A stretch of 37,216 bases of DNA from Cytophagales bacterium (GTDB lineage Bacteria; Bacteroidota; Bacteroidia; Cytophagales; Bernardetiaceae): contig JAAFJX010000033.1 of assembly GCA_013299045.1 (NCBI GenBank), positions 1-37,216 of the forward strand. Reading direction: 5' to 3'. The notes under the pieces were generated by a model. That model was not told the origin of the DNA and searched no databases. It saw nothing but the letters and a program-made list of their open reading frames with translations. The position numbers and the translations under genes were made by a program. This document shows, in pieces, positions 3,491 to 15,887 of the stretch (position 1 is the first letter of the stretch; each line of letters starts with the position of its first letter).

Positions 3491-6400
3491 CTACTCGGTC
3501 GGTTTGTTATTTATAAAGTCCTCTGCTAACATTTTTGCTTGTGCGATGACTGTGTCCACCGCTCTTTCTTGAAGGTCTGGCGGATAACCGTGTAGTCTTA
3601 AAATTCGCCTTATGTTTCGTCTCAATGCCGATTGTACACTTTCTTTAATTGTCCAATCTATTGTTGTGCTGTTGCGAACTGTTTTTAAAAGTTCTTGTGC
3701 AATGTGTTTTAAAATATCATCGCCCAATATTTTTACTGCACTATCATTTACTTCCAATGCGGTGTAAAATGCATACTCTCTATAATCCAAACCTAAATCA
3801 TCGCCTTTTTTATTGGCATCTCTTATTTCTTTACTTAGTGGTATTAAATATTTCTCTATAAACTCTACACTATCTATTTGTCCATTATGATAGCGTTGTA
3901 TAGCATCTTCTAATTTTTCTGAAAAGGATTTGCTTTGTACTAAATTGTATTTCGATTTTCGTTTTAATTCTTCTCTCAAAAGTTTTTTTAGCAATTCTAC
4001 AGCAAGGTTTTTTTGTTCCATTCCTTGCACTTCTTTCATAAATACATCGTCCAGAATACCAATATTTGGTTTTTTTATTCCTGCGGCATCAAAAATATCT
4101 ACTACGGTGTCGCTGACTATTGCTGCGCTTACTATTTGTTTTATGGCTAAATCTATTTCAGCATTTGTTTTGCCACCACCTTCTATTCTTGTTCTTTCAT
4201 CAAATTTAATGAGCCTTGCCCTTATGGCTTGAAACAGGGCAATATCATCTTTTATAGCATCTATTCGTTCGTGGGTAGCAACCAATGCATAGGCTTTTAA
4301 TAGCTTGGCGGTGGTGTCTATAAAGTTTTCTTTGCCGCTTTCTTGACTAATAATATAATCTTGAATAATGCCTATATACCTAAGTTTTTCTTCAGGTTTT
4401 AGGCTAAAAAACTTTTTCCAATCAAAATATTTTAATTGATATTGAATGCCTTCGTAAAATTCTAAACATTTGGCTACTGCCAATTCATCATCAAGTGTTG
4501 GTTTGCCCTCGCCACCACTTAGGGTATATTCTACTAATGCTTCTTGTAAATACTGTGCTAATCCAAAATAATCTACTATTAATCCGCCTTCTTTAGCATT
4601 ATTAAATACTCTGTTTACTCTTGCTATTGCTTGCATTAGATTTGCACCCTGCATTGGCTTATCGGTGTACATGGTATGCAGTACAGGTGCATCAAAACCT
4701 GTGAGCCACATATCTCTAACGATTACAATTTTTAGTTCATCTTTCTCATCTTTTAGCCTTTCACCTATGGCTTTTCTTTTTTCTTTGCTTCTTAAATGAG
4801 GCTGATACCCTTCTTCATCGGCACTAGAACCTGTCATAATTATTTTTATAGCACCCTTAGCATCGTCATCGCTATGCCAATGTGGTCTTAATGCAATTAT
4901 TTCATTATATAAATCAACGCAAATACGCCTGCTCATACACACAAACATTGCTTTGCCTTCTATTATACTTGTTCGTTTTTCAAAATGAGTAATAAAATCT
5001 TGGGCTACTTTTTGCAATCGGCTTTTGCTGCCTATTACTGCCTCAACACTGCTCCATCTCGACTTCATTTTTTGAGCCACACTCAATTCTTCGGCTTCGG
5101 TAAGCTCTTCTATTTTGTTGTCTAGTTGTAGTTTTTTTTGTTCTTCAATATTGATTTTGGCTACTCTGCTTTCGTAATAAATGGGTACAGTAGCACCATC
5201 TAAAACGGCTTGCTGTATGTCATATACATCTATATACTCTCCAAAAATGGCTTTGGTGCTTTTGTCTTTACTATCAACGGGTGTGCCCGTAAAGCCTATA
5301 TATGAAGCATTGGGCAAGCTTTCTCGTAGTCTTCTAGCAAAACCATCTAACAAGCCGTATTGGCTACGGTGGGCCTCATCGGCTATTACTATAATATTAT
5401 CTCTATGGCTTATTACCTTTGCCTTTTCGCCTATATATTTTACTTTGGGTTCAGTTACTATTCCTGCCTCTGTAGTTTCTACTTCATCATCGTTTTCTAA
5501 ACCAAATTTTTGAATGGTTGTAAATACAATGCCACCCGAAACTACATTTAACAGTTCCTGTAAATGTGTGCGGCTATCGGCTTGCTTGGGTAGTTGCCTT
5601 AATAATTGATTGCAATTTTTAAAGGTTTCAAACAGTTGGTCGTCTAGGTCATTTCTATCAGTAAGTATTAGCAAGGTTGGGTTTTGCATTTGTACATTGG
5701 TAATAAGCATCCCTGCATAAAAAACCATACTTAGGCTTTTTCCACTGCCTTGGGTGTGCCATATTACCCCTGCTTTTTTATCGCCTGCTATTTGGGAAGA
5801 TTGCAATGTAGTTGCCACCGCTTTATTTACTGCATAATATTGATGGTATTGGGCTACTTTTTTGATTGTTATTTTTTCTGTTTTTTCATACACTATAAAA
5901 TTTTGTATGGCATTAAGCAAGGTGTTTTTGTTGCATAAACCTTTTAGCAAAAATTCCATTTGCAAGTCGTGGGTATTTTCTATGCTTATGCCATCTATGC
6001 TTTTCCAAGGTTTATAATATTTAAAACTGCTGCTAATAGTGCCATAGGCTGCACTCCACCCATCGCTTATAATATTTATGGCATTGTAGGTAAATAGACT
6101 TGGTATGGCGTTTTGATAGGTTTGTATTTGATTAAAAGCACTGTCCAAATCGGCCAATTCGCTCACTGCATTTTTTAATTCAATTACCACCAAAGGCAAA
6201 CCATTAACGAATAAAATAATATCGGGTCGTTTGTTTTGATTGCCTTCTATAATGGTGAATTGATTGATTGCCAAAAATTCGTTGTTTTCTGCATTGGCAA
6301 AGTCAACGATATACACTTTTTCGCCTCTTATGCCATCGGCTGTGCGTACTTCTACATCTACACCTTCGGTTAGGTATTTATGAAAAGTTTCGTTGTTGAT

Positions 6401-6649
6401 TAAAGCGTTTGGGCTTTCGGTACGCAATACTTTTTTGAGTGCATCTTCTTTAGCATCTTGGGTAATGGTTGGGTTGAGTTTGTCAATAGCATCACGCAAA
6501 CGGGTAGCCAAAACTACATCGGTATATTGCCTTTCGGGGTGTTCGCCATCAGGTGAAAGGGTAGTACCCAAAATATAGGAATACCCTAAATTTTGAAGAT
6601 AAGAAAGGGCAATTGCCTCTATTTCGTTTTCGGTAATGCTGTTTTTCAT
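3491..6649 (-). CDS. hsdR: Type I restriction enzyme R subunit HsdR
   Basis: Motor and nuclease subunit of a type I restriction system: it translocates DNA with ATP and cuts at a distance when bound to HsdM/HsdS. The 1052 residues show the PD-(D/E)xK nuclease site RPD...ELK (141-159), a Walker A motif HTQGSGKS (298-305), the helicase Asp-box DEAH (424-427), motif III TGTP (454-457) and motif VI QAIARVNR near residue 690. Full length for the family, with no frameshift. It is the last gene of the operon hsdM-RAYT-hsdS-GxxExxY-hsdR. A copy of the GTCTGAATC repeat begins directly upstream of its ATG, so the start region is repeat-derived. The gene appears more AT-rich than the housekeeping genes, in keeping with a mobile defence island. 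Confidence 0.96.
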   Translation of the reverse strand: MKNSITENEIEAIALSYLQNLGYSYILGTTLSPDGEHPERQYTDVVLATRLRDAIDKLNPTITQDAKEDALKKVLRTESPNALINNETFHKYLTEGVDVEVRTADGIRGEKVYIVDFANAENNEFLAINQFTIIEGNQNKRPDIILFVNGLPLVVIELKNAVSELADLDSAFNQIQTYQNAIPSLFTYNAINIISDGWSAAYGTISSSFKYYKPWKSIDGISIENTHDLQMEFLLKGLCNKNTLLNAIQNFIVYEKTEKITIKKVAQYHQYYAVNKAVATTLQSSQIAGDKKAGVIWHTQGSGKSLSMVFYAGMLITNVQMQNPTLLILTDRNDLDDQLFETFKNCNQLLRQLPKQADSRTHLQELLNVVSGGIVFTTIQKFGLENDDEVETTEAGIVTEPKVKYIGEKAKVISHRDNIIVIADEAHRSQYGLLDGFARRLRESLPNASYIGFTGTPVDSKDKSTKAIFGEYIDVYDIQQAVLDGATVPIYYESRVAKINIEEQKKLQLDNKIEELTEAEELSVAQKMKSRWSSVEAVIGSKSRLQKVAQDFITHFEKRTSIIEGKAMFVCMSRRICVDLYNEIIALRPHWHSDDDAKGAIKIIMTGSSADEEGYQPHLRSKEKRKAIGERLKDEKDELKIVIVRDMWLTGFDAPVLHTMYTDKPMQGANLMQAIARVNRVFNNAKEGGLIVDYFGLAQYLQEALVEYTLSGGEGKPTLDDELAVAKCLEFYEGIQYQLKYFDWKKFFSLKPEEKLRYIGIIQDYIISQESGKENFIDTTAKLLKAYALVATHERIDAIKDDIALFQAIRARLIKFDERTRIEGGGKTNAEIDLAIKQIVSAAIVSDTVVDIFDAAGIKKPNIGILDDVFMKEVQGMEQKNLAVELLKKLLREELKRKSKYNLVQSKSFSEKLEDAIQRYHNGQIDSVEFIEKYLIPLSKEIRDANKKGDDLGLDYREYAFYTALEVNDSAVKILGDDILKHIAQELLKTVRNSTTIDWTIKESVQSALRRNIRRILRLHGYPPDLQERAVDTVIAQAKMLAEDFINNKPTE

Positions 6650-6694
6650 TTGTCTGAATCTTGATTTACTTGATTTGAGGATTTACAGGATTTG
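6650..6694 (+). repeat. GTCTGAATC repeat, copy A
   Basis: Starts TTGTCTGAATC and contains the GGATTTACAGGATTTG tail shared with the other copies. It fills the hsdR/GxxExxY junction and encodes the last residues and stop of the GxxExxY gene on the opposite strand. Confidence 0.6.
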
Positions 6695-7061
6695 TTTTTG
6701 AATTAAAAACCTTTTTATACTGCAAACTTGTTGCTCCAAAATTTATTAAAAGCCCAATGTCAAAACCATAAGCAACCACATAGTTTTTGGCTTGTGCCAA
6801 ATGCACATCTTCTAAATTTATTAAGGCTTTTAACTCTACAATTATTTTATTTTCTACTACAAAGTCTGCTCGTCTTGTTCCAACTTCTATTCCATTGTAA
6901 TAGATTGTATGTTCCTGTTCTCTTGTAAAACCCAAACCTACATTTCCTAATTCTATGGCAAGACACCTTTGATAAATCACTTCTTGAAAGCCATTGCCTA
7001 ATGTATTATGCACTTTCATAGCACATCCTATTATTTTATAAGTCAATTCATCTTTTATCAT
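6666..7061 (-). CDS. GxxExxY family protein (PD-(D/E)xK-like fold)
   Basis: A 131-residue protein of the GxxExxY family, recognised by LGNGFQEVIYQ (residues 21-31, containing G-x-x-E-x-x-Y) followed by EQEHTIYYNG and RADFVVENKIIVELKA, which resembles a PD-(D/E)xK nuclease core (D-x(n)-E-x-K). The family is widespread and of unknown biochemical role; several members have been reported next to nucleases or sugar genes. Here it lies between hsdS and hsdR in the same direction, with gaps of about 110 and 16 bp, so it is probably co-transcribed and may be an accessory to the restriction system. The last dozen residues (NSKTNPVNPQIK) come from repeat copy A and are probably not part of the fold. 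Family confident; function not known. Confidence 0.85.
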   Translation of the reverse strand: MIKDELTYKIIGCAMKVHNTLGNGFQEVIYQRCLAIELGNVGLGFTREQEHTIYYNGIEVGTRRADFVVENKIIVELKALINLEDVHLAQAKNYVVAYGFDIGLLINFGATSLQYKKVFNSKTNPVNPQIK

Positions 7062-7063
7062 AA

Positions 7064-7109
7064 TTGTCTGAATCAGAATTTACTGAATTTTAAAATTAAC
7101 AGAATTTTG
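7064..7109 (+). repeat. GTCTGAATC repeat, copy B
   Basis: TTGTCTGAATCAGAATTT at its left end, then ACAGAATTTTG at the right, in the gap between the GxxExxY and hsdS genes. Same orientation as copies A and D1. Confidence 0.6.
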
Positions 7110-7160
7110 TTAATGCAGTTTGTTAGATTGGATTGTTTTTTCTTGATATTTCTATTCATT

Positions 7161-7200
7161 TTGTTTATTCTTTAATCCTGAAAATCCTGATTCAGACTTA
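7161..7200 (-). repeat. GTCTGAATC repeat, copy C (inverted)
   Basis: The minus strand reads AAGTCTGAATCAGGATTTTC and onward. It encodes the last residues of HsdS (SLNQDFQD) and its stop codon. Opposite orientation to copies A, B and D1. Confidence 0.6.
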
Positions 7201-8410
7201 TTTTTCCACTCATCAACTTGGGTAATAAAGTATCACGGGTTTGGGTTAAGGTTTGGATTTGAAGTGAATTATATTTTATCTTTTCGAAAAGAGGTGTTAC
7301 AATTTCTTCAAACTGTTGAACTATATCTTCGTTTCCAATGCAAATATTCAAATCCATGATGTGTCTTGGATAAATATGTGGTTGTGCACTACCTTCTTGA
7401 CTATCGTAAATATTCTTTTGGTTTGATTTTAAAAAAACATAGCAGTAATGAACAAATGGAAAAATGGAACTATCAATGAAGCAAGAATCTGCCGACCAAA
7501 CAGGCATTTGATAAAGTCTTACAAATCCTGCATTTGCTCCTGAACTACTAATTGTAATGACAGGTTCTTTTGTATTAGATTCATTATGATAACAAGAAGG
7601 TTCTAAACCGCCTGCAACAACTGGAAATATTCCTTCAATAGCTTCCGCTTTTGTTATATTTCTGCCTCTTTTAGGCTGTAAAATTTCCCCTACTTTCCCC
7701 ATTTTCCAACCCTTTGGCAACTTGTCTGAATCAGAATTTTCAGAATTTAAGGATTTACAGAATTTTGTATTTATTTGATTATTTTGTTCATTCTTTAATT
7801 CTGTAAATCCTGATTCTGACGATTTTGGAAAGTTGAAATCCACAAACCATTCTTTAAACAATGCTTGTGCCATTGCTTCAAGGGTTTGGTTCATTTGTAG
7901 GTTGAGTTCTATTTTGTCGTCAAGCGAAGTAAGGATTTGGGCGATTTGGGTTTGGGTGGGAAGGTCGGGAATATCAACAGTAAAGTTTTGGAAAGTGCCT
8001 AAATTAATATTGTCTTGAACCGAACCAATAGAATGACTTTGTAAATTCCTTTTAGCAAATTGAAGTTGATATTCCATAAAATCAACATTGCAAACTTCTT
8101 TATTGGGAATAAAGCCAATTACACTATCAGGAAAACAAGCAGGATATTCCAAAATAGCTGTATCAGCAATATTTGCAGCAATGGTTATACAAATAGTTCC
8201 TTTATCCCAAAGTTTACTTTGTTTCAAGCCTTCTTCAGAATACGTCTGTGTATGTTTTGAAATTCTATGATTTGCAGCTTTAATATCTCCTGTTTGTATA
8301 AAAGGATATTTCCCCCCATACAAAAAAGCAGCATCTCTTGGTCTATGCTTTGATTTTCCTCTTGCAAGAACTCCTAATTCCCCCAACTTATATGTTTTCC
8401 ATTCACTCAT
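7172..8410 (-). CDS. hsdS: Type I restriction enzyme specificity subunit HsdS
   Basis: DNA-recognition subunit that sets the bipartite target of the methylase and nuclease. The 412 residues hold two target-recognition domains, each followed by a conserved helical spacer: TRD1 about 1-155 with spacer LPTQTQIAQILTSLDDKIEL and on to about 195; TRD2 from LPKGWKMGKV (about 235) with a second spacer ending TRDTLLPKLMSGKISL. The segment joining the halves (SSESGFTELKNEQNNQINTK and the following SLNSENSDSD) is encoded by two inverted copies of a dispersed repeat, and the C-terminal tail NQDFQD by a third. The gene is intact. It follows the RAYT gene, with a 114-bp gap holding two REPs. The specificity cannot be read from the sequence. 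Confidence 0.95.
   Translation of the reverse strand: MSEWKTYKLGELGVLARGKSKHRPRDAAFLYGGKYPFIQTGDIKAANHRISKHTQTYSEEGLKQSKLWDKGTICITIAANIADTAILEYPACFPDSVIGFIPNKEVCNVDFMEYQLQFAKRNLQSHSIGSVQDNINLGTFQNFTVDIPDLPTQTQIAQILTSLDDKIELNLQMNQTLEAMAQALFKEWFVDFNFPKSSESGFTELKNEQNNQINTKFCKSLNSENSDSDKLPKGWKMGKVGEILQPKRGRNITKAEAIEGIFPVVAGGLEPSCYHNESNTKEPVITISSSGANAGFVRLYQMPVWSADSCFIDSSIFPFVHYCYVFLKSNQKNIYDSQEGSAQPHIYPRHIMDLNICIGNEDIVQQFEEIVTPLFEKIKYNSLQIQTLTQTRDTLLPKLMSGKISLNQDFQD
7722..7767 (+). repeat. GTCTGAATC repeat, copy D1 inside hsdS
   Basis: Begins TTGTCTGAATCAGAATTTTC and ends ACAGAATTTTG. It lies in the inter-TRD linker of hsdS. Its GGATTTACAGAATT (7751-7764) is perfectly complementary to 7797-7810 in copy D2. 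Confidence 0.65.
7789..7826 (-). repeat. GTCTGAATC repeat, copy D2 inside hsdS (inverted)
   Basis: The minus strand reads GTCAGAATCAGGATTTACAG and onward. With D1 it makes an inverted repeat with a 14-bp perfect stem and a 32-nt loop in the middle of hsdS. Confidence 0.65.
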
Positions 8411-8444
8411 AATTTATTTTGATTTGGGTTTACGGTTGGCGAAC

Positions 8445-8470
8445 GTTGGGTCGAACCTGCGTGTTCGCCC
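8445..8470 (+). repeat. REP element 1 (degenerate)
   Basis: Head GTTG, arm GGTCGAAC, loop CTGCGT, arm GTTCGCCC: two changes from the head-arm consensus of the other copies. It lies in the gap between the RAYT and hsdS genes and faces REP 2, a BIME-like inverted pair. Confidence 0.7.
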
Positions 8471-8494
8471 TTTTCTATGTCTTTTGGATAAATT

Positions 8495-8520
8495 GGGCAG
8501 ACACGCAGGTCTGCCCCTAC
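8495..8520 (-). repeat. REP element 2
   Basis: On the minus strand: head GTAG, arm GGGCAGAC, loop CTGCGT, arm GTCTGCCC, a perfect 8-bp stem. It ends 4 bp from the RAYT stop codon. Confidence 0.85.
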
Positions 8521-8524
8521 AGAT

Positions 8525-9349
8525 TTATTTTTCATGAAATTTATCATCCTGCCATTTGGCGGGGTTGTTTATAATATAATTGGAAATGTTTTGATACGAT
8601 TGTTCGTTACGAATAATGTGTTCGTAATAATTGCGTTGCCACAATTTGCCATCAAACGGTTGCCAACCCAAATTTTTTACGCCTCGGATGTATTCATTTG
8701 TTGTCATTGTTTTGAACCATTGCACCACGGTATGTAGGGGCGAACCTATGTGTTCGCCCAAAATGGTGTGTTCGCCCAAAATTGGATTATCGTCCATCGT
8801 AGGGGCAGACCTATGTGTCTGCCCATTATCAACGTTCTGCCCATTATCAACGGATTGCCCATTATCAACGGATTGCCTGTTCATATCAGGGCAGACACGC
8901 AGGTCTGCCCCTACCATTCCGATATTTTCCACGATACAATGAAAATGGTTTGGCATCACAATCATTTCGTTACATTTGATGTCTGGGAATTTGTTCATCA
9001 ATTCAAAATACCATTTTTCAATCATTTTTCCTGCATCATTTAATATCATTTCGGGCGAACACGTCATTTCGGGCAGACACGTCATTTCGGGCGAACACGT
9101 CATTTCGGGCAGACACGCCATTTCGGGCGAACACGTCATTTCGGGCGAACACGTCATTTCGGGCGAACACGTCATTTCGGGCGAACACGTCATTTCGGGC
9201 AGACACGCAGGTCTGCCCCTACCGATATTACCAAACAAACATTCCCGATTTTGAACGCAAATGGTAATAAAATATAAACCCGCCTGCGAATAATCGTATC
9301 CTTTTAGGCGAATTGATTTTCGTTTGTGAATTTCTGGATTATATTTCAT
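8525..9349 (-). CDS. REP-associated tyrosine transposase (RAYT, Y1 family) with REP-derived insertions
   Basis: Single-strand HUH endonuclease of the RAYT group, expected to nick REP hairpins. It starts with the usual MKYNPEIHKRKSIRLKGYDY and GLYFITICVQNRE, carries the HUH motif MPNHFH (H135, H137) and the C-terminal blocks WQRNYYEHIIRNE and YIINNPAKW; Y258 is the likely catalytic tyrosine. Two regions are foreign to the family: residues 43-101, mainly eight six-residue repeats such as SPEMTC, and residues 145-202 (VGADLRVCP, QSVDNG repeats, ILGEH repeats). Both are made of REP and 18-bp repeat DNA, and the frame is unbroken. The ATG at 9349 fits the family N terminus and overlaps the hsdM stop by 11 nt; an upstream ATG at 9364 would add five residues. 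Activity with such inserts is uncertain. Confidence 0.9.
   Translation of the reverse strand: MKYNPEIHKRKSIRLKGYDYSQAGLYFITICVQNRECLFGNIGRGRPACLPEMTCSPEMTCSPEMTCSPEMTCSPEMACLPEMTCSPEMTCLPEMTCSPEMILNDAGKMIEKWYFELMNKFPDIKCNEMIVMPNHFHCIVENIGMVGADLRVCPDMNRQSVDNGQSVDNGQNVDNGQTHRSAPTMDDNPILGEHTILGEHIGSPLHTVVQWFKTMTTNEYIRGVKNLGWQPFDGKLWQRNYYEHIIRNEQSYQNISNYIINNPAKWQDDKFHEK
8734..8759 (+). repeat. REP element 3, inside the RAYT gene
   Basis: GTAG, GGGCGAAC, CTATGT, GTTCGCCC: perfect 8-bp stem of the GA flavour. Read on the coding (minus) strand it gives L-G-E-H-I-G-S-P-L. Confidence 0.85.
8749..8785 (+). repeat. Two-copy tandem repeat of a REP half
   Basis: TGTGTTCGCCCAAAATGG at 8749-8766 and a 19-nt copy at 8767-8785. 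It duplicates the right arm of REP 3 and encodes the ILGEH-ILGEH repeat of the RAYT. Confidence 0.75.
8799..8824 (+). repeat. REP element 4, inside the RAYT gene
   Basis: GTAG, GGGCAGAC, CTATGT, GTCTGCCC: perfect stem of the AG flavour. The coding strand reads G-Q-T-H-R-S-A-P-T. Confidence 0.85.
8825..8878 (+). repeat. Three-copy 18-bp tandem repeat between REP 4 and REP 5
   Basis: Three units of ATTATCAACGGATTGCCC; the first has TTCTGCCC at its end and the last ends in T. They encode QSVDNG, QSVDNG, QNVDNG in the RAYT. Inverted REPs 4 and 5 flank the array. Confidence 0.85.
8889..8914 (-). repeat. REP element 5, inside the RAYT gene
   Basis: Minus strand: GTAG, GGGCAGAC, CTGCGT, GTCTGCCC. 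The coding strand reads V-G-A-D-L-R-V-C-P, a different frame from REP 6. Confidence 0.85.
9053..9196 (+). repeat. Eight-copy 18-bp tandem array of REP halves inside the RAYT gene
   Basis: Eight perfectly phased units, GGGCGAACACGTCATTTC (units 1, 3, 5-8) or with GGGCAGAC (units 2 and 4). Each starts with a REP arm. The array runs into REP 6 at 9197. It encodes residues 52-99 of the RAYT (SPEMTC/LPEMTC). Confidence 0.92.
9197..9222 (-). repeat. REP element 6, at the edge of the tandem array
   Basis: Minus strand: GTAG, GGGCAGAC, CTGCGT, GTCTGCCC. The coding strand reads G-R-G-R-P-A-C-L-P just before the SPEMTC array. Confidence 0.85.
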
Positions 9350-10979
9350 AACCGATTTTAGCAAGGTTTAGTTTAATGGCTTCGTCCAACTCATGGGCTT
9401 TTTGCATTTGTGCTGAAAGTGTGGCTGAAAGCGTTTGCATTTTTTCGTCAAAAGCTACTCCATCTTCGGCTACTTCTTTAAAGTCAATGTATCTGCCTGG
9501 CGTAAGAATGTAGTTGTTTTTGCGTACATCTTCAATAGTAGCACTTTTGCAAAAACCTGGAATGTCCATATAGTCTGAACTACGATTTTTTTGATTAAGT
9601 GATTTCATTGATTTTCCATTTTTCAAATCAGAGCCATCAAGTAAATCATTTTTAATCAGTGGTTCAGACGCTTTTCTCCAATTGTGATAAGTGTCCGAAA
9701 TTTTGGCAATGTCTTTTTCGCTTAGTTCTTTTTGTTTACGGCTAATCATGGTGCCTAATTCTCTGGCATCAATAAAAAGGATTTCGTGCTGCCGATTTCT
9801 GAAACCACCATTGGGCGAAGACTTAGCTTCGCCCTTACTACGAGCCAAAAACCACAAACACGCTGGTATTTGTGTGTTGTAAAACAATTGCGAAGGCAAA
9901 GAAACCATACAATCTACCAAGTCGTTTTCTATCAATTCTTTTCTGATTTGGCCTTCGGTGGCAATTTCAGAACTCATACTACCGTTTGCCAACACAACGC
10001 CTGCCGTTCCAAAAGGTGCTAATTTGCTAATGAACAATTGCAACCAAGCATAGTTGGCATTACCTGTTGGTGGTACTCCATATTTCCATTTATGTGTTTC
10101 GGCTTTGTTGATGTTGTAATCGCTTACGTTAAAAGGTGGATTGGCAATGACATAGTCCACTTTCAATTCGGGGAATTTATCATTCATTAAAGTATCGCCC
10201 AATTCTATTTTGGCATCAATCCCACGAATAGCCAAATTCATTTTAGCCAATTTATAAGTCGTTGGGTTGCTCTCTTGTCCGAAGATTGAAATTTTGCCTT
10301 TGCGGTGTTCGTGCATTTCAATAAAGCGTTCGCTTTGCACAAACATTCCACCACTTCCGCAAGCACCGTCATACACACGTTTTTCGGGTTCGGGGGCAAG
10401 CATATCAACCAATATTTTCACAATGCTTTGCGGTGTGTAAAACTGTCCGCCTCTTTTGCCTTCGGCATCTGCAAACTGTCCCAAGAAATATTCAAATACC
10501 CAACCTAAAATGTCTTTGCCCTTTCCGTCTTTTCCTTTGCTTAATGTAATCGAACCAATTAAATCAATCAATTCTCCCAATCGTTGCTTGTCCAAAGCTG
10601 GTCTTGCATAGTCTTTGGGTAAAACGCCTTTTAAAGTTGGGTTGTCTTTTTCAATGGCATCCATGGCATCGTCAATGTCTTTGCCAATAGTTGGTAGTTT
10701 CGCTCTGTCTTGTAGCCATTTCCAACGTGCTGAGGGCACTACGAAAAATACTTTTTCGGACACACAAATATCTTGCAACTCGTTTTTATAGGCATCGGTT
10801 TCCCAAGTTGCACCTACTTCTTCTTCAAAGATTGGAATTATATCGTCAAAAGCATCAGAAATATATTTTAAGAATATCAAACCCAATACAACGTGTTTGT
10901 ATTCGGCAGCATCCATATTATTACGCAGTTTATCAGCAGCTTGCCAAAGGGTTTTCTCTAATTCTAAATTGTCAGTCAT
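9339..10979 (-). CDS. hsdM: Type I restriction-modification methylase subunit HsdM
   Basis: N6-adenine methyltransferase subunit that protects host sites and is needed for restriction. The 546 residues begin with the helical HsdM N-terminal domain (about 10-150), followed by the SAM-binding motif I YDGACGSGGMF (203-213), motif IV NPPF (280-283) and the conserved LFIDAREL (401-408). Length is typical. Residues 381-389 (SKGEAKSSP) are encoded exactly by a REP element and lie in a variable loop before LFIDAREL. A Ser/Lys/Asn-rich stretch (NGKSMKSLNQKN, about 455-470) also looks unlike the conserved core. It is the first gene of the operon; no good TAnnTTTG match is seen in the 130 bp upstream, only TAAATTG about 35 bp before the ATG. 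Confidence 0.96.
   Translation of the reverse strand: MTDNLELEKTLWQAADKLRNNMDAAEYKHVVLGLIFLKYISDAFDDIIPIFEEEVGATWETDAYKNELQDICVSEKVFFVVPSARWKWLQDRAKLPTIGKDIDDAMDAIEKDNPTLKGVLPKDYARPALDKQRLGELIDLIGSITLSKGKDGKGKDILGWVFEYFLGQFADAEGKRGGQFYTPQSIVKILVDMLAPEPEKRVYDGACGSGGMFVQSERFIEMHEHRKGKISIFGQESNPTTYKLAKMNLAIRGIDAKIELGDTLMNDKFPELKVDYVIANPPFNVSDYNINKAETHKWKYGVPPTGNANYAWLQLFISKLAPFGTAGVVLANGSMSSEIATEGQIRKELIENDLVDCMVSLPSQLFYNTQIPACLWFLARSKGEAKSSPNGGFRNRQHEILFIDARELGTMISRKQKELSEKDIAKISDTYHNWRKASEPLIKNDLLDGSDLKNGKSMKSLNQKNRSSDYMDIPGFCKSATIEDVRKNNYILTPGRYIDFKEVAEDGVAFDEKMQTLSATLSAQMQKAHELDEAIKLNLAKIGYEI
9813..9838 (-). repeat. REP-like element 7, inside hsdM
   Basis: Minus strand: GTAA, GGGCGAAG, CTAAGT, CTTCGCCC: same 4-8-6-8 layout and a perfect stem, with compensating arm changes (G..C to G..C swapped). 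It encodes HsdM residues 381-389. Confidence 0.75.
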
Positions 10980-11114
10980 TGTCTGTTTATTATTCTTAGT
11001 TTATGGGTGCAATTTAGTTTTTTCATTCTTGTTTAAGGCTGTGGTATTTTTATATTGGCTTTCGTTTTTGTCGGACTGTCAATGTTTTGCAAGGGTTTCT
11101 TGGCAATGGGCATA

Positions 11115-12191
11115 TCAAAACGGAGTTGCACAGTGCTTTGCATTCTTTCTGCGCCTTTGCGTGTAGAGCGGTCGCTGCTTGGGCGCAAACTTTTGCAAAT
11201 GTGGACAGGCGCAATCGTGTAGATAGCCCTCGTGGTCGCGTGAGTTCACTTTGCGCTCTTTGAGTTCTTTTTCTTGCTCTTCTATGATTCGCTGGATTTC
11301 TTTTTCGGATAATTTTACAAATTTGTTGAGGTCTGGGCTGCCCGCATCTACCCAGGCGGTGTACCAGAGGTCTCCTACCATCTTGATAGCGGCGCGCATT
11401 TGTCGCTCTACCTGTCCGTTCAGCCATGTGTGGTAGGCTTCCGAGAACTCCCTGGAATAAACCCGTGTTTGTACATTCCCACGCATTTCGTAGCCAAATT
11501 TTCTATCCTCACCCATCTTGAGCGTTAGCTCACGTTCAAATTTTAGGACAGAATCTAAGGCGGCATGCGCATTTTCAACGGCGAGCCAGGCTCTGCTTGT
11601 TACATCTTTTTCATAATGAGCATCTTCAAAAAAGAGGTCGTAGTTGTCAGAGAACAGTTCTGGTAGGCGCGACTCCCAAAAGCCATGTATGCCATACTGC
11701 CCAGTGAGTTGGCCGTTGTAATTGACTGTTGTGTGTAGAGGCACGTTTGCATCACCAATATAATGCCCCAAATCTGCTGCCAGAAGCAAAATTCGCTCTA
11801 CATTCTGCTCCTCAAATGCCTTAGTAAGACGGTATTTCATGCTCACAATATGCCAAGGCACAATGCCATAGGCCATGAGTGTGTCTTCAGAATATTTGGC
11901 TACGGCATCGTTCCAGCGGCGCGGCATGGTTTTGATGGCTTCTTTGCCATAAACGTCAATATCTATATAATGTCGTGGCGCTTCCCCTTCTACGGCATAG
12001 CGGCGACGGTCTGGGTTTACAGAATTTTCTGTTAAGTAAACAATGTTTGCCTTAAAAAAGGAAATCATGGGGGGTGGAAGCGTAAAAACTGCCGTACGAT
12101 TTATCAGTTTATGGGAATAGAACCCCCAACTCATCGCTAAATGAGTCGTTAGTACAAAGCCAATGAATAGAATACTGATTTTTTTGAACAT
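11115..12191 (-). CDS. Secreted zinc-dependent phospholipase C / S1-P1 nuclease-like hydrolase
   Basis: Exported trinuclear-zinc phosphodiesterase-like enzyme. From the ATG at 12191 it has 358 residues with a signal peptide (MFKKISILFIGFVLTTHLAMS); cleavage before W22 would expose the N-terminal Trp that is a zinc ligand in this superfamily. The other ligands line up: H27, D61, H74, H143 and D147 (LGHYIGDANVPLH), H153, H169 and E173 (IHGFWE). The last ligand is Glu, as in Bacillus phospholipase C, where S1/P1 nucleases have Asp, so a lipase role is slightly favoured. The C terminus (after about 310) is charged and ends with a Cys/His-rich, basic tail (CACPH, RRRK). An upstream in-frame start at 12263 would spoil the signal peptide. 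It stands between two operons. Substrate not known. Confidence 0.75.
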   Translation of the reverse strand: MFKKISILFIGFVLTTHLAMSWGFYSHKLINRTAVFTLPPPMISFFKANIVYLTENSVNPDRRRYAVEGEAPRHYIDIDVYGKEAIKTMPRRWNDAVAKYSEDTLMAYGIVPWHIVSMKYRLTKAFEEQNVERILLLAADLGHYIGDANVPLHTTVNYNGQLTGQYGIHGFWESRLPELFSDNYDLFFEDAHYEKDVTSRAWLAVENAHAALDSVLKFERELTLKMGEDRKFGYEMRGNVQTRVYSREFSEAYHTWLNGQVERQMRAAIKMVGDLWYTAWVDAGSPDLNKFVKLSEKEIQRIIEEQEKELKERKVNSRDHEGYLHDCACPHLQKFAPKQRPLYTQRRRKNAKHCATPF

Positions 12192-12311
12192 GGACGCTGC
12201 TTTGAGTTTTTTAAGACAAATTCTTTTCAACACAATTTTAGGCAAAAATTGTAGGCTGGGCAAGCACTACACAGAAAATTAACGAAACAGCATCTTTGTT
12301 GTAACTTAGCC

Positions 12312-13742
12312 TCAAGACATCATCTTACTCTGGCATATAAAATCTGTACGTGGAACATCAGTTTTAGCAATGGCGCTAAAGCCACCAGCCACTTCTGAAA
12401 AATTACGGAAGCCTCTGGCCTGCAAAATACTGGCCGCAATCATGCTCCGATAGCCTCCCGCACAGTGTATGTAGAAGTGCTCGCTAGGGTTGATGTCCTT
12501 TGTCCAGAGGTTGATGTCTGCAAGTGGCCGCAGATAAGCCTCTTCTACGTGTTCGGCAGTATATTCGCCCTCTTTACGTATATCAATAACCTTGCTTTTG
12601 CCAATTTTTACTTCTTCTGCAAACTGCTGTGCCGTGATTCGATTGACAGTATCTATTTCTTTATTAGCTTCTTGCCAAGCCGCAAAACCTCCTTTGAGAT
12701 AACCCAAAATGTTGTCAAAACCCACACGGCTCAGGCGAGTAGCACACTCCGCTTCACGGCCAGCATCAGTTATGAGGATAAGGGGCTGTTTGACATCGCC
12801 TATCATAGCGCCTACCCAAGGGGCAAAGTCTCCATTAATGCCTATATTGATAGATTGAGGGACAAAACCCTTGCAAAAATCTGCACTGCTTCGTGTATCC
12901 AAAACAAGGGCATTGGTTTCTTCCACAAGTACTTCCAGTTCTTGGACGCTCAGTTCGCGCATGGCGTTCTGCATAACGTTCTCAAAGCTATTGTATCCCA
13001 TTTTATTCAGCATGACGTTTGCGCCAAAGTAGGGCGGTGGGGCAAGAAGGCCGTCCGTAACCTCCGCGACGAACTCATGAACGGTCATATCGGCTCTTAA
13101 GGCGTAGTTTTGTTGCTTTTGCAGCCCAATGGTAGAAACGGTTTCTTTGCTCATATTTTTTCCGCAAGCGCTTCCTGCTCCGTGTCCGGGATAAACGGTA
13201 ACGTCGTTTGGCAGGGTCATAATCTTAGAGCGGAGTGAATGAAATAGTGTAGTGGCTAGCTGTTCTTGGGTCATGCTGGTATTTTTTTGGGCGAGGTCTG
13301 GCCTGCCTACATCGCCAATGAAGAGGGTATCGCCACTAAAAATAGTTCTGGGTGTGTCGTTTTCGTCCAACAAGAGATAGCAAGTACTTTCCATAGTGTG
13401 TCCTGGTGTATGCAAAACCTTTATTTTGACTTGGCCAAGTTGGAAAATTTGCTCGTCTTTTGCGCTCACAAACTCAAAGTTGGGCAGAGCATTTGGGCCA
13501 TAGACAATAGGCGCTGCTGTGGCCTTGCTCAAGTCTAGGTGTCCACTAACGAAATCGGCGTGAAAGTGCGTTTCAAAAATATATTTGAGCTTAACTCCGT
13601 CGCGCTGGAGACGCTCCAAGTAAGGCTTAGTTTCGCGAAGAGGGTCAATGATGGCAGCTTCCCCCGCGCTAGTTATGTAGTATGCGCCTTGTGCGAGGCA
13701 GCCTGTATAAATTTGTTCAACTAAAAAAGAAGGTGTGTTCAT
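12312..13742 (-). CDS. CstB/Blh-like persulfide dioxygenase fused to two rhodanese domains
   Basis: Sulfane-sulfur detoxifying enzyme. The N-terminal metallo-beta-lactamase domain (1-235) carries THFHADF (H59, H61, D63), HTPGHT (H115), SGDTLFIGDVGRPDL (D138) and YPGHG (H187), the ETHE1-type persulfide dioxygenase pattern in which one iron is held by two His and an Asp. Two rhodanese domains follow. In the first (about 265-360) the active-site position reads ITDAGRE, without Cys; in the second (about 370-470) C427 in HCAGGYRS is present. This MBL, pseudo-rhodanese, rhodanese order is that of Staphylococcus CstB, which turns persulfide into thiosulfate. It is the last gene of the ArsR-TauE-YeeE operon, 38 bp after DUF6691. 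Oxidation of persulfide is inferred from motifs and context. Confidence 0.88.
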   Translation of the reverse strand: MNTPSFLVEQIYTGCLAQGAYYITSAGEAAIIDPLRETKPYLERLQRDGVKLKYIFETHFHADFVSGHLDLSKATAAPIVYGPNALPNFEFVSAKDEQIFQLGQVKIKVLHTPGHTMESTCYLLLDENDTPRTIFSGDTLFIGDVGRPDLAQKNTSMTQEQLATTLFHSLRSKIMTLPNDVTVYPGHGAGSACGKNMSKETVSTIGLQKQQNYALRADMTVHEFVAEVTDGLLAPPPYFGANVMLNKMGYNSFENVMQNAMRELSVQELEVLVEETNALVLDTRSSADFCKGFVPQSINIGINGDFAPWVGAMIGDVKQPLILITDAGREAECATRLSRVGFDNILGYLKGGFAAWQEANKEIDTVNRITAQQFAEEVKIGKSKVIDIRKEGEYTAEHVEEAYLRPLADINLWTKDINPSEHFYIHCAGGYRSMIAASILQARGFRNFSEVAGGFSAIAKTDVPRTDFICQSKMMS

Positions 13743-13780
13743 TGTTCTAATTTGCTTATAGTTAGTAGATTGTTTGAATT

Positions 13781-14194
13781 TTAATGCGGTAGTTTTTCTT
13801 TAAAAAAGCCATAAACCCATGTGCCCGCTATGGCGCTCAGGAGCGTCAGGAGTATTACGCCAAACCCACTGCCAATTTGCGCAAACAAAGGGCCAGGGCA
13901 AGCACCAGTGATAGCCCAGCCTATGCCAAAGAGCAAGCCTCCAAAGACATGTCCCCAATTAAACGTCTTTTCTGCCCAAATGATTTTTTCGCCATCTAAT
14001 GTTTTGATGTTGAATTTTTTGAGCAAAAACAAAGAGAGCATTCCTACCAAAACGGCTGTGCCTATTACGCCAAACATATGGAAAGATTGCAAGTAAAACA
14101 TTTCTTGAATCCGAAACCAACTGATAATTTCCGCTTTGACGAACACGATGCCAAAAAGCAAGCCCAGAACTAAGTATTTAATTTTTTTCATCAT
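13781..14194 (-). CDS. YeeE/YedE-type membrane protein (DUF6691)
   Basis: A 137-residue integral membrane protein with about four hydrophobic segments (KYLVLGLLFGIVFV, FGVIGTAVLVGMLSLFLL, HVFGGLLFGIGWAI, and a last one near IGSGFGVILLTLLSAIAG). The signature GWAITGACPGPLFAQIGSG is that of the second half of split YeeE/YedE sulfur-compound transporters. The ATG at 14194 lies two bases after the stop of the upstream YeeE gene, a translationally coupled arrangement, so the two halves probably work as one transporter (PmpA/PmpB in bigR operons). It likely moves thiosulfate or another sulfur compound, by context. A longer reading frame begins at 14329 but overlaps the neighbour and is not credible. 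Confidence 0.83.
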   Translation of the reverse strand: MMKKIKYLVLGLLFGIVFVKAEIISWFRIQEMFYLQSFHMFGVIGTAVLVGMLSLFLLKKFNIKTLDGEKIIWAEKTFNWGHVFGGLLFGIGWAITGACPGPLFAQIGSGFGVILLTLLSAIAGTWVYGFFKEKLPH

Positions 14195-14196
14195 TC

Positions 14197-14763
14197 CTAA
14201 AACTGTTTGAGTAAAAAAGGAACAAGCCAGTTGGCAGATACAAAGCCCCCCGCCATGAAGCAACAAGTAGCCACCAAAGAGGGCCATTGCAAACCAGAAA
14301 GCCCCATAATGGCGTGACCGCTCGTGCAACCACCTGCATAGCGCGTTCCAAAGCCGACCAGAAAGCCGCCTAGTACAAAAAAGAAAAAACCTCTGGCGGT
14401 TAGCAAGTTATCCATGCCAAAAATTTGAGGAGGCATGGATTGAGAATAATCGGTAATGCCGAGAACAGTCAGCTTGTTTTTTGTACCTTCAGCCAGAACA
14501 ATAGCTTCGCCAGAGCCAAGAAATTGCGTGGCAACTATGCCTCCCAGAAAAATACCCAGTACAAATAACAAGTTCCAAACTTCGTCTTTCCAGTTATACT
14601 GAAAAAACGGCAGGCCAGCAGGGATACAAGCTGCACAAATATGCCGCAGGGAAGAAGATATACCAAAACTTTTGTTGCCAACTAGCAGCAATGTAGGCAC
14701 TATCAGGCCAATCAAAAGACCAGCGACTGACCAATGCCAAGGTTGTTTGATGATTTCGAGCAT
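14197..14763 (-). CDS. YeeE/YedE family sulfur transport protein
   Basis: A 188-residue membrane protein with about five hydrophobic stretches and the family signature GFGTRYAGGCTSGHAIMG near residues 137-154, including the conserved Cys-containing GGCTSGH block. In full-length YeeE the equivalent halves lie on one polypeptide and carry thiosulfate; here the second half is the next gene. It follows TauE/SafE after 8 bp. Being between an exporter and a persulfide dioxygenase under an ArsR-type gene, it probably handles sulfane sulfur or thiosulfate, but direction of transport cannot be told from sequence. Confidence 0.87.
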   Translation of the reverse strand: MLEIIKQPWHWSVAGLLIGLIVPTLLLVGNKSFGISSSLRHICAACIPAGLPFFQYNWKDEVWNLLFVLGIFLGGIVATQFLGSGEAIVLAEGTKNKLTVLGITDYSQSMPPQIFGMDNLLTARGFFFFVLGGFLVGFGTRYAGGCTSGHAIMGLSGLQWPSLVATCCFMAGGFVSANWLVPFLLKQF

Positions 14764-14771
14764 CGTTTTAT

Positions 14772-15569
14772 TTACTTCAACAGCGTTTCTTTAAGAATGA
14801 TATAAGCACCCATGAGCAATACAAACCAACCAAAAGCTGGTTTTAGCTTATTTCCATCAATTTTTTTTGAAAGACCAATTCCTACAAGAATTCCCCCAAT
14901 GGCCGCCGCTGACATGAACCCAAGCAGAGTCCAATCAATGACGGTGCTGCTGCTTTCACCCAAAAAACCTAACAAAGACTTGGCAGCGATAATGAGCAAG
15001 GACGTGCCTACAGCCTCTTTCATGGGCAATTTTGAAAGGACTACTAGTGCGGGAATTATCAAGAAGCCACCACCAGCGCCTACAAGCCCAGTCAATATGC
15101 CCACTACAGTACCTTCCAGCACAATGAGTGGATAGTTAAACTTTCGCGCTGAGCTACTTAGGTCTTTATCTTGTTCATTCTTTTTGAGCATACTGTAAGC
15201 TGCCGCTATCATCAAGACAGCAAACAAAAGCAGCAAAAAGGTATCTTTTGACAGGCTGAAAGCGGCTGTTTCTATAATTTGTGTGGGAATAGCAGGCACA
15301 ATATAAGCCCTTGTTAAGTAAACCGCCACAATAGAAGGCGCGCCAAAAACTGCTGCAGTTTGTAGGTTTATCAGCTTATCCTTAAAATAGCTGACTGAAC
15401 CAACTGCACTCGTTAGACCCACTACGAAAAGAGAATAAGCTGTAGCAGTAACAACCTGAATACCAAACAAATAAACAAGAACGGGCACTGTCAAGATACT
15501 GCCACCACCACCCATCAAGCCAAGTGATATGCCAATGAGAACCGATGCCATGTATCCGAGTGCTTCCAC
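14772..15569 (-). CDS. tauE: TauE/SafE family sulfite/organosulfonate exporter
   Basis: A 265-residue polytopic membrane protein with about eight hydrophobic segments. The typical start GLMGGGGSILTVPVLVYLFG (residues 18-37) and the internal repeat GLVGAGGGFLIIPALVVLSK (about 161-180) identify the two-fold TauE/SafE fold. In bigR and cst operons the member next to a persulfide dioxygenase is thought to export sulfite made from persulfide oxidation. It starts 12 bp after the ArsR gene and precedes the YeeE pair by 8 bp, so it is co-transcribed. The sulfite substrate is inferred from the neighbours. Confidence 0.9.
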   Translation of the reverse strand: MEALGYMASVLIGISLGLMGGGGSILTVPVLVYLFGIQVVTATAYSLFVVGLTSAVGSVSYFKDKLINLQTAAVFGAPSIVAVYLTRAYIVPAIPTQIIETAAFSLSKDTFLLLLFAVLMIAAAYSMLKKNEQDKDLSSSARKFNYPLIVLEGTVVGILTGLVGAGGGFLIIPALVVLSKLPMKEAVGTSLLIIAAKSLLGFLGESSSTVIDWTLLGFMSAAAIGGILVGIGLSKKIDGNKLKPAFGWFVLLMGAYIILKETLLK

Positions 15570-15581
15570 TTTGTGCTCTGT

Positions 15582-15887
15582 TTATACGTCCTTGCAGCAG
15601 TTTTCAAGGCAGTTGATGATGTTTTGCATCTTAGGAAAACGCAAAGATACAAACTTGTTGCGGCCAACTCTTTCAGAAAGCAGCACACCTTTATCCTCAA
15701 GCAATGTGAGGTGCTGAGAAGCCACCGCCTGCTCTAAACCTAGTGCGGTTTGTACTTCCAGGACAGTCAATTTGCCTTTTTCGGAAAGCAAGTCCACAAT
15801 TTCCAAACGCATAGGGTGCGCAATAACCTTGAGCATATTGGCAGCAGATAGGAGCTTTGCGCTTTCTATTCTTTGATTGAGCCGCAT
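15582..15887 (-). CDS. ArsR family repressor, probably sulfide/persulfide-responsive (BigR-like role)
   Basis: A 101-residue winged-helix regulator: RLEIVDLLSEKGKLTVLEVQ, recognition helix around LEQAVASQHLTLLED and wing VLLSERVGRNKFVSL. It heads the sulfur operon and probably represses it. BigR/SqrR sensors use one Cys in an early helix and one near the C terminus to form a di- or tetrasulfide bridge; here all three Cys (93, 97, 98) are at the C terminus (NCLENCC) and none is in the N-terminal half, so sensing would have to use the C-terminal cluster or a dimer. No ArsR-type metal site (CxC in helix 3) is visible. A palindrome sits between its promoter elements. The ArsR fold is sure, the ligand is an inference. 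Confidence 0.85.
   Translation of the reverse strand: MRLNQRIESAKLLSAANMLKVIAHPMRLEIVDLLSEKGKLTVLEVQTALGLEQAVASQHLTLLEDKGVLLSERVGRNKFVSLRFPKMQNIINCLENCCKDV

Follow-up and report, generated by a model that had tools for sequence, protein, structure and literature searches.

In-frame REP hairpins and tandem arrays in two loops of a RAYT transposase gene from a Cytophagales bacterium and in its relatives

Results

The RAYT gene and its locus

The window, as the whole analysed stretch of 37,216 bp is called here (contig JAAFJX010000033.1 of assembly GCA_013299045.1, from a Cytophagales bacterium of the Bernardetiaceae), harbors a RAYT gene (TnpA-REP, a Y1 transposase) within a type I restriction-modification operon (3491–10979; hsdM, RAYT, hsdS, GxxExxY and hsdR), in which the RAYT ATG and the end of hsdM overlap by 11 bases. 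The features of the gene are collected in Table 1, where a REP hairpin comprises a GTAG head, an 8-bp stem and a 6-nt loop, and the array copy numbers were read from a draft contig.

Table 1. Coordinates of the RAYT gene, its motifs, REP hairpins and tandem arrays (positions within the window)
Feature	Position	Strand	Details
RAYT (TnpA-REP, Y1 transposase) CDS	8525..9349	-	ATG start; frame open to TTG at 9364; from the ORF list
HUH motif MPNHFH	8939..8956	-	H135 and H137 invariant in alignment A2
Tyrosine codon Y258, YIINNP motif	8576..8578	-	invariant in alignment A2
REP 1	9197..9222	-	perfect, in frame (RGRPACLP); site 1
18-bp array, 8.6 copies (TRF)	9046..9200	-	hexapeptide, e.g. TCSPEM; site 1
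REP 2	8889..8914	-	perfect, in frame (VGADLRVCP); start of site 2
18-bp array, 3.2 copies (TRF)	8820..8877	-	site 2
REP 3	8799..8824	+	perfect, in frame, orientation opposite to gene; site 2
Two-copy 18-bp repeat adjoining REP 4	about 8748..8783	-	repeat family D3, by eye
REP 4	8734..8759	+	perfect, in frame (GEHIGSPL), opposite orientation; end of site 2, right before helix C
REP 5	8495..8520	-	perfect; 3' of RAYT, between RAYT and hsdS
REP 6	8445..8470	+	degenerate, 2 mismatches; 3' of RAYT

The protein exhibits the motifs MPNHFH, LWQ and YIINNP, with Y258 presumably serving as the nucleophile. The whole protein matched Pfam Y1_Tnp with 25.9 bits (cut-off 23), and the RAYT stretch, which scored 21.5 bits in the genome search and thus fell under the same cut-off, was the sole Y1_Tnp match at E ≤ 0.001 in the genome (4.06 Mb, 79 contigs); NCBIfam REP_Tyr_transpos reached 59.3 bits, under its cut-off of 80, with the C-terminal part alone matched. 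Comparison of the core with that of a close relative (L017) gave a dN of 0.11, less than one tenth of a dS of 1.3 that is itself close to saturation. An AlphaFold run, for which 84 of the 100 genes described below were aligned, displayed pLDDT values of 90–98 in most core blocks, 68–69 in the first 20 residues and mostly 47–61 in the two inserts, so that the loops at site 1 and site 2 are predicted to be disordered. The best PDB fold match was 4er8, a TnpA-REP with a REP hairpin bound (E 4.4e-4; TM-score 0.61 by target length and 0.38 by query length); IS200-type folds stood near it in rank (2f4f, E 6.7e-4; 2xma_B, E 7.5e-4), and whereas the fold is thus matched almost equally by IS200/IS605 transposases, the sequence family and the REPs point to TnpA-REP. 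Judged by sequence, the gene is a RAYT with an intact and conserved catalytic core, which agrees with the preliminary description of the locus, as the residues of its HUH and tyrosine motifs are invariant in the alignment.

That description had also placed four perfect GTAG hairpins and 18-bp arrays of eight, three and two copies inside the transposase frame as coding sequence of two loops. All of them were recovered, two of the arrays by TRF and the two-copy one by eye, and the frame is open throughout. With REPs 5 and 6, both located within 80 bp 3' of the gene, five perfect copies and one degenerate copy are associated with it, while no REP was found within 400 bp on the 5' side. The gene therefore has no inverted REPs on both sides, which PMC2817692 describes as always present at RAYT genes. 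As DNA, the perfect REPs form stable folds (-8.6 to -9.0 kcal/mol, z -4.3 to -4.7), whereas nothing notable was obtained for the 18-bp array (three units, z -0.09). The stems of the convergent pair differ from each other (GGGCAGAC vs GGGCGAAC). The eight-copy array had been proposed to be built on a REP arm; the last bases of its unit are common to the REP 3' arm, and 10 nt are shared with the REPs of the gene itself, compared with a mean of 6.3 and a maximum of 12 for the REPs of other genes. Open reading frames run through the REP in five of six frames for the CTGCGT-loop REP and in four of six for the CTATGT-loop REPs. A further perfect, in-frame 8-bp hairpin with another stem (GGGCGAAG) was observed in hsdM (9813–9834), with GTAG 3 bases before it on the minus strand, in a loop 5 residues longer than that of 3khk; a comparison of this hairpin as an insertion with local relatives gave no rows.

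REP hairpins within the genes of relatives

Relatives were gathered by a class-wide protein search (relatives in 31 of 295 genomes, 29 new loci taken), a family search (4 loci) and an alignment search of genome contigs (best 80 of 423 confirmed stretches taken), in which the contig scan patterns were placed in the core, outside the REPs, and the ranking query contained the inserts. The 114 loci, window included, comprised 102 of full length and 100 distinct genes, the 14 left out of the counts being 12 that did not span the core model in full and 2 duplicates. Two insertion sites were defined from the core model, site 1 at nodes 40–49 and site 2 at nodes 88–124. The share of genes with a site-2 REP is similar across the set although the ranking query held inserts (17 of 27 in the first set, 26 of 36 in the nearer half and 24 of 37 in the farther half of the second set).

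Perfect GTAG hairpins were observed in site 2 of 67 of the 100 genes and in site 1 of 12, leaving 33 genes without a perfect site-2 hairpin. Both sites had been described as short loops in relatives, which applies to site 1 (at most 8 residues in 77 of 100 genes) but not to site 2, which is long, variable and REP-bearing in most genes; relatives with an identical loop and no REP were not encountered among these genes, the loops being different and mostly carrying REPs of their own. The density of GTAG hairpins was 8.2 per kb in site 2, a value inflated by site 2 being itself partly REP sequence, 3.9 per kb in site 1, 0.07 in the core and 0.09 in the rest of the loci. The flanks within 400 bp contained 0.94 and 0.78 per kb, with 1.7 per kb upstream and 2.2 per kb downstream in the first 100 bp and 0–0.2 per kb past 400 bp. 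GTAG words headed a perfect hairpin in 120 of 166 cases in site 2 vs 3 of 108 in the core. Permuted heads in site 2 gave a mean of 13.7 vs 120 for GTAG, much of it from words overlapping the same hairpins (TAGG 111 of 193, GGTA 25 of 92), and nine non-overlapping permuted words headed hairpins in 15 of 781 cases (rows summed).

The orientation of the REPs in site 2 is uneven. Among the 67 genes, 29 carry a convergent pair (26 plain pairs, 2 with an extra reversed REP and 1 double pair) and 24 a single REP; double-foot hairpins occur singly in 8 genes, twice in 1 and together with a forward REP in 1, and the remaining sets are 1 divergent pair, 1 forward tandem and 2 reversed tandems. The first seven stem bases differ in 23 of 30 REP pairs, the window included, and such unlike stems imply paired changes on both arms inside one gene. 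For reversed REPs, one phase was open in 53 of 67 cases and used once. Of the 63 genes with internal REPs for which 400 bp was available to either side, 35 have no REP within that distance, and REPs on both flanks were found in 8 of the 87 genes having such flanks. In four genes from another genus of the phylum (L149, L150, L155 and L156), a forward REP near site 1 and a reversed REP near site 2 were seen by eye, the pair spanning the HUH motif.

Hairpins as DNA and their match to the enzyme

Synonymous codon permutation, which keeps protein and codon usage of each gene, left a mean of 1.7 and a maximum of 7 hairpins vs 147 observed, and for the window gene a mean of 0.03 and a maximum of 2 (100 permutations) vs 4 observed. 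As the hairpins vanish under this permutation, the peptide is not their explanation. In the 26-nt hairpin class, stem positions 3–8 each display at least two Watson–Crick pair types, in a set picked for perfect pairing. The likeness of REP stems follows that of the core proteins (Mantel r 0.51, a value reached in 0 of 2000 permutations), and at 30 of 31 loci the flanking REPs resemble the REPs inside the adjoining gene more closely than those inside other genes. Together, the permutation and Mantel results indicate that it is at the DNA level that the hairpin is maintained or renewed, and that it corresponds to its enzyme.

Loop REPs follow the tree of relatives, which is poorly resolved, neither in site 2 (28 changes vs a shuffled mean of 27.8) nor in site 1 (11 vs 11.5), and stable vertical inheritance of loop REPs was therefore rejected. 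Some tree signal was exhibited by the flanking REPs (24 changes vs a shuffled mean of 30.1, 4 of 300 shuffles as low).

Tandem arrays in the loops

Tandem arrays were detected in site 2 of 41 and in site 1 of 6 of the 100 genes. Within the two loops, every one of the 75 TRF rows has a period divisible by 3; elsewhere in the frame this applies to 10 of 15 rows, and beyond the gene to 69 of 140. The rows overlap, and the requirement for full-length frames biases periods to multiples of 3. Gain or loss of a unit of such a period leaves the frame unshifted. Repeat-length switching had been suggested for a protein loop from the sequence of the window. Phase-variable switching of expression was accordingly rejected for the window gene, though not for all relatives, and length variation of a disordered loop fits. 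In 19 of 33 REP-bearing genes, the best frame-preserving array anywhere in the frame has 8 or more bases in common with the REPs of that gene, and the notion that arrays are always built on REP arms was rejected on this count. Among the 100 genes, L019 has the longest loop at site 2, with 191 residues and approximately 32 copies of a 15-bp unit (TRF) in an open frame. Two loci left out of the set (L021 and L024) have two overlapping frames split in site 2, which may represent decay, assembly error or real frame variation.

REP copies elsewhere in the genomes

The window genome (4.06 Mb) contains six REP copies at up to 2 mismatches, all in the RAYT gene or within 80 bp of it, and none of a reversed-order control pattern; with a narrower pattern at up to 3 mismatches the same number was found, again all at the locus. 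REPINs are pairs of inverted REPs that form a mobile, dispersed population. The window locus has two inverted REPs close together in common with them, but its REPs lie within a coding sequence, at a single genomic place and with the spacer grown into an array, and no copy was detected off the locus at up to 3 mismatches.

Differential distributions were observed in the 11 genomes searched for dispersed copies at up to 3 mismatches. All REP copies found are inside the gene or at most about 100 bp away in five genomes (G000, G051, G160, G072 and G026), copies also occur far from the gene in four (G055, G027, G139 and G038), and no copy of the searched pattern was found in two (G263 and G172). 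One REP variant is dispersed in some genomes of the phylum, with a copy at up to 1 mismatch in 19 of 296 genomes, the window's included, and one genome (G353) harbors a RAYT relative with flanking REPs plus one internal REP. These copy distributions indicate that internal-only and dispersed states both exist. An intergenic hairpin at G000:C27:25114-25135, which lacks a GTAG head and looks like a terminator, was rejected as a REP. Plasmid records gave no match to positions 8400–9400, and of viral contigs two stretches fitted a pattern, neither of which encoded a RAYT relative.

History and neighbourhood of the window gene

The nearest genes by core, L017 (83% identity), L013 and L019, are all without a site-1 insert, and the eight-copy array was seen in the window gene only, among the genes compared. 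L144, from another genome of the class, encodes a protein with 57% identity to that of the window and has in site 1 a GTCG-headed hairpin at the position and in the frame of REP 1; from this matching place and frame, the two genes may have inherited the site-1 REP from a common ancestor. Inserts of 20 or more residues are present in site 1 of 12 genes, with 10 changes on the tree, and site-1 loops of at least 13 residues cluster somewhat (21 genes, 15 changes vs a shuffled mean of 19.3, 5 of 300 as low).

Concerning the neighbourhood, an hsdS-like gene also directly precedes L013, L017, L019 and L144 (for L144, neighbours by eye), and Hsd matches were found around 17 of the 100 loci. L158 (G534) and the window (9339–15887) have a restriction operon with a RAYT near YeeE/YedE-like and rhodanese-like genes (by eye) in genomes of different families, and this shared arrangement may reflect a hot spot in common or joint transfer.

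Discussion

In-frame REPs in tnpA-REP genes have been known in outline since 2018, when Quentin et al. (PMC6006769) reported them within genes of subclass 2.4, which corresponds to Bertels group 4 in the table of that paper, generally between HuH and Y. The window gene shares with this subclass the motifs NH[IFV]H (here NHFH), WQ and YIxNNP, GTAG REPs with a G-C stem base, and in-frame REPs between HuH and Y, represented here by REPs 2, 3 and 4. It differs in its second site with REP and array before the HUH motif, its 18-bp arrays, the absence of REPs from the 400 bp upstream of the gene and the lack of dispersed REPs in the genome, features that are not mentioned in the sections of PMC6006769 considered. 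Convergent pairs, two fixed sites, frame-preserving arrays and genes with internal REPs only are likewise absent from those sections, and nothing nearer than this paper was found among the papers that the literature searches listed. What is added here are measured regularities, the second site, the arrays and REPs that were found nowhere else in the window genome.

Compared with the canonical RAYT and REPtron (Nunvar 2010; E. coli TnpA-REP), the HUH/Y1 fold, the GTAG REPs and the best match to 4er8 are common, but canonical genes are described as always having two inverted REPs as flanks, and REPs as usually abundant, whereas the convergent REPs of the window are internal and few. In other groups, both the GTAG head and the palindrome are important for cleavage (PMC8266576). 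Rickettsia palindromic elements and the intragenic GTAG and CGTC repeats of Di Nocera 2013 are also in-frame palindromes in coding sequences, but these lie in various other genes, whereas those of the window occur in the gene whose product is presumably the cognate enzyme. PMC3733652 describes GTAG and CGTC repeats inside a variety of genes as well as RAYT-like genes that lack flanking REPs.

With moderate confidence, the window gene is interpreted as a RAYT resembling subclass 2.4 whose own REPs gather in and beside it by local action, the in-frame copies in the loops surviving. Local action combined with selection is the simplest account because REP density peaks in the loops, falls over the 400-bp flank and is near background beyond, and because the core is nearly REP-free, the frame is kept and core dN is well below dS. 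The enzyme would act mainly locally, on single-stranded DNA, so that REPs would pile up in and beside its own gene; copies hitting the conserved core or breaking the frame would disappear, and those in frame within the two disordered loops would persist, aided by the four to five of six frames that are open through the REPs. The REP arms, together with a few spacer bases, could then give rise to the 18-bp arrays via slippage or unequal exchange, and internal REPs would keep gene and substrate together in transfer, even without flanking or dispersed REPs.

The main rival, passive tolerance, holds that REPs insert at random and are borne by flexible loops, with neither action on the own gene nor benefit. 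It is close to the view taken in PMC6006769 and PMC3733652, where unrelated genes hold REPs too, and it fits the predicted disorder of the loops, the turnover of REP presence without tree signal and the four genomes that also have copies away from the gene. Site 2, however, although partly REP-made, has a higher REP density than the nearest 100 bp of flank, the 29 convergent pairs vs 1 divergent and the uneven use of open phases are unlike random insertion, and all copies found lie at or beside the gene in five of the 11 genomes searched, with two others containing none; we regard such tolerance as a possible but somewhat unlikely explanation. A quite unlikely further reading is an inside-out RAYT, in which the canonically bounding inverted REPs are now in frame and the enzyme would act on its own gene, exchanging or excising the disordered loop in frame and continually rewriting it while carrying its substrate.

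Three other explanations were considered. Putative autoregulation, in which the enzyme would bind the hairpins of its own gene or transcript, or mRNA hairpins would slow translation and thereby limit dose, could draw on perfect hairpins that are stable as DNA and not accounted for by the peptide; it is nevertheless very unlikely, given the 33 genes without a perfect site-2 hairpin and a position well within the frame, which is an unusual place for translation control. That the loops represent adaptive peptides, for instance for DNA or partner binding, would suit the kept frame and the many arrays, but the peptides vary from gene to gene and in the hairpin phase used, the recurring thing under synonymous permutation is the hairpin and not the peptide, and the loops are disordered by prediction, which renders this highly improbable. 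Repeats building up in a decayed gene, as the unusual length and the scores under the NCBIfam and genome-search Y1_Tnp cut-offs might suggest, are hardly tenable in view of the open frame, the invariant catalytic residues and the dN well below dS.

This group of genes bears on the origin of REPs and on the discrimination of own REPs by RAYTs. Enzyme and presumed substrate are present in one DNA and vary in step, thereby forming naturally matched pairs on which binding and cleavage can be assayed, and RAYT genes with internal REPs offer a direct test of action in cis.
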